Shown here piece by piece: positions 52,439 to 59,294 of a stretch of 64,000 nt of DNA. This DNA comes from Desulfomarina profundi (GTDB taxonomy: Bacteria > Desulfobacterota > Desulfobulbia > Desulfobulbales > Desulfocapsaceae). Made by a program: the position numbers and the translations under genes. The notes beneath the pieces are model-generated. The model was not told the DNA's origin. It ran no database searches and saw only the letters and a list, made by a program, of their open reading frames with translations. The DNA lies in assembly GCF_019703855.1 (NCBI RefSeq), contig NZ_AP024086.1, positions 2,686,501 to 2,750,500 on the forward strand, given 5' to 3'. How positions within the stretch are numbered: position 1 is the first letter of the stretch; each line of letters begins with the position of its first letter.

Positions 52439-52987
52439 ATGGACAAACATAATTGTACCCTCTACAGCAGCGGCCTGAAGGGCGCCGAAGCCACCTTTGG
52501 AGAAGAAGCAGAAAAAATCGGAGTAAAAGAAGTTGTATACTCCTTTGAAGGACATAAACTGTCCCGGGAAAAAAATGTCATAGTTCTCAGCCAGGACGAA
52601 CTCGAGCGGGGCGATATCAGCATGGAACTGGCTTCCAGGATGCTGAACCGCACCTACTACGAAACGGACAAAATCAGAAAGGTTCTGCAGACCATTTTTC
52701 ATATGGTCAACAGTGGTCATCAGGTTTTTGTGGTCGGTTCCATCCAGGAGGACGGTTCCGTAAAAGGTGGAACCGGCTGGGCTGTCGAACTGGCCAAGAT
52801 GTTCAACCGCCCCCTTCATGTCTTTGATCAACCGCAGAAAAAATGGTTCACCTGGCGGGCCGGCAGCTGGCAGGAAGACAGCCCGAAAATAGAATACGAT
52901 ACTTTTGTCGGCTCCGGTACACGCTATCTCAGTGATGCCGGCCGTGAAGCCATTGGCAGACTCTTTGCTGATTCCTTCCCCGAATAG
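52439..52987 (+). CDS. Conserved protein with a SLOG/Rossmann-like pattern, function unknown
   Basis: This is a 182-residue cytoplasmic protein. It opens CTLYSSGLKGAEATFGEEAE, and GHQVFVVGSIQEDGSVKGGTGWAVELAKM has the glycine-rich nucleotide-loop look of the SLOG/LOG (DprA-like) superfamily. The FDQPQKKWFTWR segment is strongly conserved in homologues I recall, which are unnamed. Its start follows CAGGAG by a few bases. It sits among repeats, with a family B copy 69 bases upstream and a hairpin element just after its stop. Function is open. Confidence 0.6.
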   Translation: MDKHNCTLYSSGLKGAEATFGEEAEKIGVKEVVYSFEGHKLSREKNVIVLSQDELERGDISMELASRMLNRTYYETDKIRKVLQTIFHMVNSGHQVFVVGSIQEDGSVKGGTGWAVELAKMFNRPLHVFDQPQKKWFTWRAGSWQEDSPKIEYDTFVGSGTRYLSDAGREAIGRLFADSFPE

Positions 52988-53532: not shown

Positions 53533-53559
53533 TGATCGTTTTTTTTTGGGAGCAGCACC

Positions 53560-53991
53560 ATGAGAAAGGCCGTCTTCGTACTCACTGTACTTGGAATTCT
53601 GACAGCAGGGACTGTTTTTGCCAGGCAAACTTACAATTATATCAATAGCAAGTCCCTGCTTGAAATACTGGACACAGGAAATTCTGCGCAACTGGTGGAT
53701 ATTCAAAAAAAAAAATGACTACCTGATGCATCATTTCTCCCATTCCGTCCAAACCGCAGCTTATCCTGTCAAATCAGAACTGGACAAAAAACGTCTTGCA
53801 CCTGTAATCAGCAAATTACAGCAGACTGACGGCCGGATTATTATTGTCGGTCCCGGGGAAAAGGTGCTGCCAAAAGAGCATTCAGATATTTAACAACTCG
53901 AGGCATTTCTCCGGAACGGATTGCCATCCTTGAAAAAGGTATACGCGGCTGGCCGAAACCCGAACTGCTGCTGGACACCTACGGTCACTGA
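53560..53991 (+). CDS. Rhodanese-like secreted protein with no active-site cysteine, doubly frameshifted
   Basis: Starting at ATG 53560 (GGGAG upstream), the frame encodes a signal peptide (KAVFVLTVLGILTAGTVFAR) and NSKSLLEILDTGNSAQLVDI. It shifts at the A11 run 53705-53715 and again at the G4 run 53855-53858. Removing one A and adding one G gives a 143-residue rhodanese fold ending FRYLTTRGISPERIAILEKG and GWPKPEL. Where active rhodaneses have the Cys loop, the repaired sequence reads VGPGGKGAAKRA, so it should be catalytically inactive. Either a decaying gene or another victim of homopolymer errors is possible. Confidence 0.55.
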
Positions 53992-54152: not shown

Positions 54153-56045
54153 CTAATACTCCAGATCCCTCTCTTCAAAATATCTCTTCGGCTCCCCCTT
54201 GAGAATCATCTTCAAAAGGGTATTCATTGTTTTGATATCATTATCAAATCCTCCATGGGTTTCACTGGTGGTTTTAGCCGATTTATCCTCCATTCCATGA
54301 CTGATCTCGATCCGAAAGACAGGTGATCCAGGCAGTTTCCTCAAGTACTTTTTGAATATTTCCATCCCGAGAATACGCTCCCCGATCTTTTCTTCAAACG
54401 CATTTGAAACAAGGTAGAGTAACGATTTCCTGTACAGCGGTGTTACCGTATCCTTCAGCTCAAGCTGACCGTCAAGCATAAAAACTGCCATCCGGTTTAT
54501 ACCGAAAACATCTTTATCCCGCTCTTTTAACAGTGGTCTGTAACAGGTCTTGAAATCATTGTGGGTACAGGCAGGAGCAAGAAGAGAACACGTTTCCACC
54601 CTGGGAGCATTACCAGTTCGATCAAGCGCTTGAAGGAGGTGAGCCAGCAGAATAGCACCGGTACTGTGACCAACAAGGTGTACCTTTTTCGGTCTTGAAT
54701 TTTTTGCGGAAAATGCTTCCAGGAAAGCTGAAACAGTCTCACTGCCGGCAAATCCCGGCTCAAAGGGTTTTTTTGCCCCTCTCTTCATTTCCCGCCATAT
54801 GGCCCGGCCCACATGACGCGTCAGTTTCTCAATGAGTTTATCCGTATAATCTGTGAAACCGGCAGTTCGCGCATCAACATCTTCTTTCTTGCCGAGTATG
54901 ATATCTTTTATTTCCTCCAGAAGCCCGGTGTCATACATGAAATGAAAAGGATAGATTCGATTGGCCTTGAACACCTCTTTCATGGCGACAATCCTGCGGG
55001 CAGAATCCCTGATGCTGTTCAATCCGCCATGGGCATAAAGAAGCAGATGGTCATATTTATCACTCCCGGCCACAAGATCGGCAGTCTGGCGAACCGTTTC
55101 CTGATCCGCCCAGTAAACTCCCCTGGAATCAAAATTACCATCATCAATATGCACAAAGTGACCCAGTATCTCAGCCCGTTTCGGGCTTCTTTTAAAAAGT
55201 CCCTGTTCCCTCTGAATGCCATCCGAACCGGACGGGCTCAAGTGCCAGACCTGGGGTGTGGACAGGGCCAGCCTGACCACCCAGGCATCCTGAACATTCT
55301 CAAGCCAGTCCTCATAGGACCAGAGTGCAAGCCCTCCCTTACCCCAGTTCTTCCCCCATGAATTCTGAACCCAGAACCCCTCGCTGTTATAACCGACAAC
55401 TGCAAAAGCATGTCCGCCGATCGTGCCCGGTTTAAACGGTATCTTTCCCTTTTTCACATTGGATTTTCGCCATCCTTCATGGACACGGGCACTCACATAA
55501 ATGGCCTCTACCTCATTGAGCGCCGCATGGAAATCTGACAGGTGTTTTTTTATTCTGTAATAGGCGCCGGGAGTCGTTTTCCGGGCATCTTCCGCCTGCT
55601 CGATGGTCAACGTCCAGTGCTGTTCTTCAGCCCTGTACGGCGCCAGCTTTTCCGAACAGACACCCATATTATACCAGCCCTTGATCGCCCCACGACAACT
55701 TGACCCTGAATAGTCAGTGCCGTCCCATTCATCATATCTCTTTGCCATCTCATACAGCATACGGGTACTGACCTGTTTTACACCGGAACGCTTGTCCAAC
55801 AGCAGATTGATAACCGCCCCGAGGCCAAACCCTGTGCAGGCCCCTTCCTGTCCCTGATCAAGAATAATTGGATCTGCGGGAGGATCCATCTTTTCTTTCA
55901 ATGGAATGAGGGCGGGATGGTAGGTATAGTCCCGAAAATCCCTGGAATCCTCAACCGCATTCAGTTTGAAACCATCAATACTGCCAAATTTACCAGATTT
56001 ACCGTCTCGTTTTCCTTTCAGTTTTTTCTGCTTCGACTTTGCCAT
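54153..56045 (-). CDS. Fusion of papain-family cysteine peptidase and alpha/beta hydrolase
   Basis: I start at ATG 56045 (GGGGGG just upstream), giving 630 residues. The frame is open to 56210. A Lys-rich N-terminus (KSKQKKLKGKRDGKSGKFG) is followed by a C1 papain domain with Gln64, Cys70 in DQGQEGACTGFG, His212 in GGHAFAVVGYN and Asn228 in QNSWGKNWGKGG. The C-terminal half is an alpha/beta hydrolase: YAHGGLNS, a nucleophile Ser461 in VHLVGHSTGAILLAHL and a likely His597 in THGGFD. No signal peptide or membrane segment is visible, so it is probably cytoplasmic. I do not know this domain pair by name; a role is unknown. It is transcribed divergently from the TPP riboswitch. Confidence 0.8.
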   Translation of the reverse strand: MAKSKQKKLKGKRDGKSGKFGSIDGFKLNAVEDSRDFRDYTYHPALIPLKEKMDPPADPIILDQGQEGACTGFGLGAVINLLLDKRSGVKQVSTRMLYEMAKRYDEWDGTDYSGSSCRGAIKGWYNMGVCSEKLAPYRAEEQHWTLTIEQAEDARKTTPGAYYRIKKHLSDFHAALNEVEAIYVSARVHEGWRKSNVKKGKIPFKPGTIGGHAFAVVGYNSEGFWVQNSWGKNWGKGGLALWSYEDWLENVQDAWVVRLALSTPQVWHLSPSGSDGIQREQGLFKRSPKRAEILGHFVHIDDGNFDSRGVYWADQETVRQTADLVAGSDKYDHLLLYAHGGLNSIRDSARRIVAMKEVFKANRIYPFHFMYDTGLLEEIKDIILGKKEDVDARTAGFTDYTDKLIEKLTRHVGRAIWREMKRGAKKPFEPGFAGSETVSAFLEAFSAKNSRPKKVHLVGHSTGAILLAHLLQALDRTGNAPRVETCSLLAPACTHNDFKTCYRPLLKERDKDVFGINRMAVFMLDGQLELKDTVTPLYRKSLLYLVSNAFEEKIGERILGMEIFKKYLRKLPGSPVFRIEISHGMEDKSAKTTSETHGGFDNDIKTMNTLLKMILKGEPKRYFEERDLEY

Positions 56046-56215
56046 ATTACCCCCCATGTCTGAAGATTTGCGGTTTGCGAGCCACACCTTCCAACCTAAC
56101 CATATATGGCAGCCACCACAAGCAGTTTTATCCTCATTGCCAGTGATAATTCTTCCAATTCCGGAAAAATCTGGTGGCAATATCAGGTTCGATACCCTAT
56201 AGTTGAGCAATCATA

Positions 56216-56352
56216 GTGCGGGAGCTTGGAGCAACCTTGCTGAGAGGGGTTTTACGATTAAACTGAACCCGACCGCTGAACCTGATCCGGATAATGCCGG
56301 CGGAGGAACAAGTGAAAGTGATACACCGCCTCCTGCCCGAGGCGGTTTTTTT
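56216..56352 (+). promoter_or_regulatory. TPP riboswitch (THI element) with terminator platform
   Basis: GGAGCTTGGAGCAACCTTGC, CTGAGAGGGG, GAACCCGACCGCTGAACCTG and CCGGATAATGCCGGCGGAGG match the conserved P2-P5 core of thiamine pyrophosphate riboswitches (about 56216-56312). It is followed by a terminator hairpin, ACCGCCTC (56325-56332) with GAGGCGGT (56339-56346), and T7. Binding of TPP should favour termination before thiB. A possible -10 (TATAGT, 56198-56203) lies just upstream. Confidence 0.92.
56325..56352 (+). terminator. Riboswitch-controlled intrinsic terminator before thiB
   Basis: An 8-bp perfect GC-rich stem with loop CTGCCC followed by a T-tract. It forms the expression platform of the TPP riboswitch. 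Confidence 0.85.
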
Positions 56353-57606: not shown

Positions 57607-59294
57607 GTGAAAACCCTGATGAAAAAACGAACAGTGCCACGGTGGCTTCTGCTCACCCTTCCTCTTCTCTTTCTGGCCCTTTTCTATTTTTATCCCCTGA
57701 TAAAAATAGTGCTGGTCAGTTTTGCGCCTGAGGGCACCTGGGAACCGGGGCGCCTCCAGCAGCTTGTCAGCTCAGACAGCTATTTCCGCATCCTGCGTTT
57801 TACCTTCTGGCAGGCTGCACTTTCCACCCTGCTGACCCTGTTGCTGGCTCTGCCCGGCGCTTTTGTTTTTACCCGATACCGTTTCCCCCTGAAAAACCTG
57901 CTTCAGGCGTTGATGACAGTACCTTTTGTCCTTCCCACCGTGGTCACTGCCGCCGCCTTCCAGGCACTCCTCGGACCGGGTGGCCTTGTGAACGACGCCC
58001 TGATGCGCCTCTTTGACTTTGACAGTCCCCCCGTCAAACTGAACCAGAGTGCCGCTTTTTTCCTGCTGGCCCATATTTTCTATAATTACTCTCTGGTCCT
58101 GCGTATTGTCTCCGGCTACTGGGCCAGGCTGGATCCCCACCTGAAGGAGGCTGCAACCATGCTGGGTGCATCTCCCTTGAGGACATTCTTTAAAATTACC
58201 CTCCCCCTGCTGATACCACCAATCACTTCCGCAGCCCTCCTGGTTTTTATTTTCTGTTTCACGAGCTTTGGTGTCGTCCTGATTCTGGGAGGCCCAGGCT
58301 GCGCCACAATAGAGGTTGAAATCTATCGCCAGTCCATACAGCTTTTCAACCTGCCCATGGCAGCCGCCCTCTCCCTTATCCAGATCTGCATAAACTTCCT
58401 TCTCATGTTATTCCATGCCCGACTGGGACGTAACAGCAGAATCGGTTTTTTTTCCTCAACCCCGGGAGAGGCACCCGACCAGGCCAGGGGATTACTGCAG
58501 AAGAGCCTGCTGGTCACCAATCTCGCTTTTATGGTCATTTTACTGCTTACTCCTCTTCTGGCCCTGCTGCTGCGCTCTTTTCTCGGGGAACACGGTCTCA
58601 CCCTGGCTTACTACAGGGCACTGTTCACCACACCACCGGGATCAGTGTTTTTTGTACCACCTGTCCAAGCCGTTCTGAACAGTATCGGATTTGCTGTTCT
58701 GGCCATGGGAATGGCGGTGCTGCTTGGTCTTCTTGCCTCATCTTATCTGGCCTGTGCTGAAAACAATAAAAAAAACTCCACCCATTTCTGGGATGCCATC
58801 ATCATGCTCCCCTCGCCACTTCCGCCGTTACCCTTGGATTCGGCTATATCATTACCTTGAACACGCCTCCCTTGAACCTGCGCGATTCCATGGCCCTTAT
58901 TCCCATCGCCCATACCCTTGTTGCCTTCCCCTTTGTGGTTCGCTGTATCCTGCCATCCATCCGGCAGATTCCTGAAAATATACGGGAAGCAGCAGCTCTG
59001 TCAGGCAACTCACCCCGCAGGGTGTGGCAGAAAATCGACCTGCCCCTCCTCAGCCGGCCTATCATGGTCGGGGCTGTTTTTGCCTTTTCCATCTCCATGG
59101 GAGAATTCGGGGCTTCCACCTTTGTAGCCAGACCCCATACACCCACCATGCCCGTCGCCATTTTCCGTTTTCTGGGCCAACCGGGCGATATGAATTACGG
59201 CCAGGCCATGGCCATGAGTACCATCCTCATGGCAGTGACTGCCGCAGCTTTCTGGCTGCTGGGAAAAACCGACACAGGAGGAATGAATTCATGA
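57607..59294 (+). CDS. thiP: Thiamine ABC transporter permease, frameshifted at a C4 run
   Basis: The frames 57607-58860 and 58857-59294 form one permease with two BPD domains, each with an EAA loop: LKEAATMLGASPLRTFFKIT and NIREAAALSGNSPRRVWQKI. Adding one base at C4 58809-58812 changes LPSPLPP into LPLATSAVTLGFGYIITLNT, giving 562 residues. About twelve hydrophobic segments are expected. The start is GTG 57607 or ATG 57619; neither has a strong ribosome-binding site. It ends overlapping the thiQ start (ATGA). Confidence 0.88.

Follow-up and report, generated by a model that had tools for sequence, protein, structure and literature searches.

What does a papain-type peptidase do in the same polypeptide as an alpha/beta-hydrolase? 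The question is raised by a gene on the minus strand, at positions 54153 to 56045, of a 64,000-nucleotide stretch of Desulfomarina profundi DNA (contig NZ_AP024086.1, positions 2,686,501 to 2,750,500; hereafter the window). A first-pass annotation of these letters stated that the architecture could not be named from known families, and the whole protein indeed has no name in NCBIfam, PHROGs or PADLOC. Our analysis suggests that the fusion may be a Sec-independent two-enzyme effector that degrades the cell envelope. It would then be the papain counterpart of the caspase and alpha/beta-hydrolase pairs of conflict systems, and its likeliest use would therefore be lytic; we regard this reading as an even call. 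The features concerned are as follows:

54153..56045, minus strand: C1 peptidase and alpha/beta-hydrolase fusion gene, 630 amino acids plus stop (open reading frame (ORF), Pfam, homologues, AlphaFold)
55329..55862, minus strand: Peptidase_C1 core, residues 62-239, with Gln64, Cys70, His212 and Asn228 (Pfam, invariance, xylellain structure)
55197..55256, minus strand: linker, residues 264-283, modelled with low confidence and probably flexible (AlphaFold, alignment)
54162..55178, minus strand: alpha/beta-hydrolase domain, residues 290-628, with YAHGGL at 337-342 (AlphaFold, conservation)
54657..54671, minus strand: nucleophile elbow GHSTG at 459-463, with Ser461 (Ser in 82 of 87 aligned proteins, Gly in one divergent clade of five)
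54255..54257, minus strand: His597 of HGGFDND, the likely catalytic histidine (His in 84 of 87)

Two conserved domains in one chain

The first domain is assigned to peptidase family C1 (papain) by its Pfam score (Peptidase_C1, PF00112, residues 62-239; E 1.4e-8, 35.5 bits against a gathering cut-off of 20.7), its Gln-Cys-His-Asn set and its papain fold, and peptidase activity is predicted from these. The solved structure closest to the N-terminal half is xylellain, 3ois (phmmer 1.3e-15; Foldseek 6e-16, with a template modelling (TM) score of 0.78 of the target). An N-terminal extension directly before the C1 core carries the invariant residues D33, D36, R38 and D39. In an alignment of the query with 86 homologues (87 proteins in total), the tetrad Q64/C70/H212/N228, which had been picked out from the letters as a full C1 catalytic set, showed no variation at all (87/87).

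The second domain is less easily named. Several Pfam alpha/beta-hydrolase models matched the query around residues 436-507, all below their cut-offs (best 19.4 bits against 26.3), and a caspase-linked relative of the domain passed Pfam DUF900 (21.7 against 20.5 bits). The hidden Markov model searches and structure prediction proposed in the first-pass annotation thus gave a C1 match above threshold, hydrolase matches below it, and two well-folded domains. AlphaFold, run with 45 sequences, returned a mean predicted local distance difference test (pLDDT) of 87.4 and a predicted TM score of 0.85, with a low-confidence linker at 264-283; among the homologues the inter-domain linker is 26-74 residues long. 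When residues 283-630 were modelled alone, a confident alternating alpha/beta arrangement was obtained (pLDDT 91.6). The top Foldseek match of this domain was Tle1, a phospholipase of the type VI secretion system (T6SS) (4o5p, E 3.4e-4; for the identity of 4O5P see PMC12421835), with a poor superposition. It was followed by a Legionella protein, an HSL-type esterase and a dienelactone hydrolase, mostly alpha/beta-hydrolases with low TM scores. The GHSTG motif and a plausible histidine had been noted before; the latter is most likely His597. The catalytic acid may be E529 or D532.

Of the 87 proteins, 82 retain the hydrolase residues HGG, Ser461 and His597, with Ser461 and His597 individually conserved to the extent listed above and His339 of YAHGG present in 85, so the catalytic residues of both domains are conserved in homologues. 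Loss is restricted to five proteins (L067, L083, L084, L085 and L132; loci are given by L number), in which the serine and most hydrolase motifs are gone and the C1 tetrad is kept. These form one deep FastTree branch, with long branches and unsure placement. Two of them, L067 and L084, carry a fused trypsin by Pfam, as does L085 by close kinship; L083 adjoins a GDSL-lipase-caspase protein, and L132 adjoins genes for an S8 peptidase and an animal-type haem peroxidase. The protease is thus always kept; the hydrolase, to judge from these five proteins, can apparently be spared when other enzymes are available.

This pattern bears on the possibility that the fusion is a self-processing esterase, whose papain domain would be a maturation protease cutting the disordered linker and whose hydrolase would be metabolic or scavenging. 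A low-confidence linker between two well-folded domains would suit such an enzyme, as would the lone, divergently transcribed gene of the window and the many partnerless relatives. However, the C1 site is stricter than the hydrolase site, and five relatives lost the hydrolase triad and kept the C1 tetrad; therefore the protease has a role of its own there. The caspase, trypsin and muralytic partners described below would also be left unexplained, and we consider this alternative quite improbable.

No signal peptide had been seen in the query, and a simple hydropathy test found no hydrophobic N-terminal segment in the query or in any of the 44 homologues examined. The GH108 lysozyme partners of the family (see below) likewise lack one, which would allow either lysis from within or non-Sec export.

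Distribution and genomic company of the relatives

A homologue scan in which each GTDB species was represented by a single genome gave 69 loci, with about 60 full-length relatives at roughly 32-77% identity (most 45-77%) in proteobacteria and beyond, so the fusion recurs far more often than chance would give. A model of the hydrolase domain had matches in 8 of the 297 genomes sampled from the phylum of the window organism and in 20 of 369 genomes of the gammaproteobacterial class of a Marinicella genome, and eight carriers that were checked have one copy each. In the tree, the window gene groups with copies from two Desulfobulbaceae bins and one bin labelled Xanthomonadales (L009-L011), away from the copies of its own family and order (L157, L158), and no full-length copy was found in six genus mates of the window organism (bins 72-88% complete). 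Rhizobial plasmids also carry family members. Phyletic patchiness, tree grouping and plasmid carriage form a pattern of horizontal movement. A phage origin was considered and rejected: phage and viral collections hold C1-type relatives only, and no fusion. At L147 (7074-8960), an apparently N-terminally truncated C1-hydrolase homologue lies beside a REP-type transposase-like gene.

The survey of gene neighbours proposed earlier revealed recurrent muralytic, caspase and trypsin partners. Among 1262 called genes in 108 loci, all ten recognised GH108 lysozyme genes sit exactly one gene downstream of the fusion on the same strand, as found with a model built from those same genes, which could miss more distant GH108s. 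In a Pfam tally of 80 co-directional immediate neighbours GH108 leads with 10. The families listed for 76 control genes, taken at a distance of three to five genes, do not include it; that list hides most singletons. Other wall hydrolases are fused or adjacent. PG_binding_1 with GH19 is fused to family members L072 and L004/L159, and GH19 with a peptidoglycan-binding domain is encoded 8 bp downstream, as the next gene, in L157, from the window organism's own family. The N-acetylmuramidase PF11860 is fused in L143, Amidase_2 with a peptidoglycan-binding domain lies upstream of L130, and CHAP occurs as a neighbour in L083 and with a peptidoglycan-binding domain in L078. Protease neighbours comprise trypsin (fused to the C1 protein in Paracoccus), caspase, a matrixin/astacin-like metallopeptidase and S8; at L079 the C1-hydrolase gene stands beside caspase, trypsin and YLATT. 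Further conflict-type neighbours are a weak SLATT_3-like gene in L016 and an nSTAND1-TPR gene near L045, and amylase-like and S15 genes were found in some loci.

The hydrolase domain also occurs without the papain domain. A caspase is then encoded immediately downstream or in the same chain in seven of eight usable cases (L086, L087, L088, L089, L129, L148, L152), the remaining one, L149, showing none. In L089 (Kovacikia), Amidase_2, hydrolase and caspase form one chain. The order in L129 (S. meliloti pSymA) is phage-type lysozyme, hydrolase, caspase, pYEATS; pYEATS is also found at the caspase-linked L087 and L088, and L086 additionally has a trypsin-phospholipase-D protein. The hydrolase domain thus travels with a cysteine protease, and both travel with muralytic enzymes. 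According to Kaur et al. 2020 (PMC7159879), every caspase of a VMAP system comes with an alpha/beta-hydrolase gene. The C1-hydrolase family resembles this partnership, papain standing where the caspase would be.

Several further features were seen near family members. Proteins of about 2000 amino acids or more and of unknown family, some with signal-peptide-like starts (L067 2-6748, L084 1-6945, L085 1-6846 and L131 1-5674, all on the minus strand), are encoded, in Paracoccus and Roseivivax, by genes transcribed divergently from that of the trypsin-C1 variant. A second, lipoprotein-like alpha/beta-hydrolase of related domain lies near the fusion gene at L063 (4343-6025, minus strand). On alphaproteobacterial plasmids, family members repeatedly have a haem peroxidase or cytochrome c peroxidase gene in the vicinity (L132 5187-6899, L130 10753-12378, and the left flanks of L078 and L088).

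The fusions to muramidase, GH19 and peptidoglycan-binding domains, together with the lack of a Sec signal and the structural match to Tle1, would also fit a toxin against bacteria or eukaryotes that is exported through a contact-dependent apparatus, for instance type VI secretion. The VipB sheath gene, however, had no match in the window genome or in 12 others (13 of 19 genomes searched; an E. coli control was positive). VgrG, PAAR or immunity genes were not noticed adjoining the fusion, for which no systematic search was made, nor were VgrG, PAAR or MIX noticed among the scanned neighbours. We regard export of this kind as unlikely for the family. Delivery by a T6SS in the window organism itself was set aside as unlikely, since the sheath gene was not found in its genome.

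A digestive role, as a cytoplasmic enzyme of protein turnover or peptide processing active in starvation autolysis or in recycling of wall and membrane, would account for the wall hydrolases, the matrixin/astacin-like metallopeptidase and the amylase-like and S15 genes of some loci. Yet the patchiness, the carriage on rhizobial plasmids and the company of caspase, pYEATS, YLATT and STAND genes fit conflict better than housekeeping, and this role appears distinctly improbable to us.

In the effector that we favour, the protein would be kept in the producer's cytoplasm or exported without Sec. The papain-type protease would attack proteins of the cell envelope, the esterase/lipase-like serine hydrolase would probably act on its lipids or other acyl esters, and, in many relatives, an exchangeable peptidoglycan hydrolase would cut the wall in concert. 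The outcome would be self-lysis, with infection as the presumed trigger, or the destruction of another cell. The protease may in addition cut the linker and so release or activate the hydrolase. The idea that the two enzymes work in turn on a single small substrate found no support, the muralytic and protease partners pointing instead to the destruction of envelope or protein. Taken more broadly, the family may represent an unrecognised class of cell-destruction module. Its hydrolase, nearly always paired with a cysteine protease (an in-chain papain or an adjacent caspase, exchangeable in one role), would recruit whatever peptidoglycan hydrolase is available (GH108, GH19, phage-type lysozyme, N-acetylmuramidase, amidase or CHAP), for a joint attack on protein, lipid and wall. 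We advance this wider proposal tentatively and think it somewhat more likely wrong than right.

Several observations weigh against an effector of this kind. PADLOC, which catalogues anti-phage defence, gave no match for the protein, and the substrate class is proposed from fold and company. The GH108 loci are inter-related, so that independent events are fewer (about five separated places in the tree). Most relatives have no obvious partner, and neither a holin nor an immunity protein nor a sensor accompanies the family throughout. No muralytic, caspase or sensor gene adjoins the window copy or its closest relatives (L009, L010 and L011; on the upstream side, L009 lies close to a contig end), and one GH108 and one GH19 partner, used as protein queries, had no match in the window organism's genome, a result for two queries that leaves room for other partners. 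The idea of a toxin or defence effector, raised in the first-pass annotation, thus draws support from the relatives (caspase, trypsin, pYEATS/YLATT, STAND, and cell-wall hydrolases adjoining or fused) and none from the surroundings in the window. The window copy, which would presumably share the role of its relatives, may function alone or with a partner beyond the two queried, or it may have arrived recently.

The gene and its surroundings in the window

The fusion ORF is intact. Its ATG at 56045 is preferred because a GGGGGG Shine-Dalgarno-like run closely precedes it and homologues start around residue 18-27; a longer version from a TTG start (685 amino acids) was rejected on the same grounds. 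The neighbours, by reading, are methyltransferases, a small uncharacterised gene and thiamine transport genes. The gene had been described as standing alone, divergent from a thiamine operon, and this is right, with a riboswitch and thiamine transport genes on one side:

56208-56327, plus strand: thiamine pyrophosphate (TPP) riboswitch (Rfam, 53.7 bits against a cut-off of 54.3, hence missed at the default threshold)

A terminator-like hairpin follows at 56325-56346, and then the thiamine transport genes. A frameshift near 58850, perhaps introduced in assembly, apparently splits the thiamine ATP-binding cassette permease (57607-59294, plus strand) into two ORFs (417 and 145 amino acids). On the other side of the fusion gene, a rhodanese-like protein with a signal-peptide-like start (53536-53991, plus strand) is spread over three frames, with one change near an A run, and appears to be a broken gene or a sequencing error. 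A 182-residue protein at 52439-52987 (plus strand) has a GGTGWAVELAK motif and perhaps a SLOG/LOG fold.

Comparison with known systems

The fusion is not described in the open-access literature searched (subscription papers and preprints were outside the search), and a 2023 survey of papain-family evolution makes no mention of alpha/beta-hydrolase fusions; a common, characterised fusion of the two halves thus did not come to light there. Xylellain, a C1A peptidase of Xylella fastidiosa, shares with the N-terminal half a segment ahead of the active site, but it is a lone peptidase of about 290 residues without a hydrolase domain. Its substrate is unknown (PMC12090721), and the present family gives xylellain-type peptidases a defined context. 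With the Tle1-type T6SS phospholipases, its best Foldseek match, the hydrolase domain appears to share the serine-hydrolase fold; at about 10% identity, TM scores of 0.14-0.34 and a large root-mean-square deviation the resemblance is at fold level only and, unlike the setting of those enzymes, the window genome has no match to a T6SS sheath gene.

Trypsin, wall hydrolases and papain-fold enzymes are likewise combined in the NucA-trypsin systems (Kaur et al. 2020), which use lysozyme and papain-like peptidoglycan peptidases as effectors. These systems differ in that no NucA nuclease or EAD1 was seen among our matches and in that the C1 domain of the fusion is a true C1 peptidase by Pfam. Closest are the caspase and alpha/beta-hydrolase pairs of the VMAP/MoxR-vWA and GAP1-N1 systems (Kaur et al. 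2020, PMC7159879), which likewise join a cysteine peptidase to an alpha/beta-hydrolase. Relatives of the fusion's hydrolase domain do stand beside or in one chain with caspases, and the domain may be homologous to the published hydrolases. Unlike those pairs, the peptidase here is papain-type and in the same chain, and no MoxR ATPase, vWA or VMAP core gene was seen among the neighbours read at the window locus, the rest of the genome lying outside that reading.

It is plausible that the fusion is a papain variant of these already published effector pairs, the exchangeable wall-lytic partners being the larger new claim. If so, the caspase-hydrolase theme of conflict systems would be extended to papain-family proteases and linked directly to cell-wall lysis, yielding a compact, testable set of protease, hydrolase and lysin in which the exchange of papain and caspase beside one hydrolase domain is a natural experiment on the protease's role.
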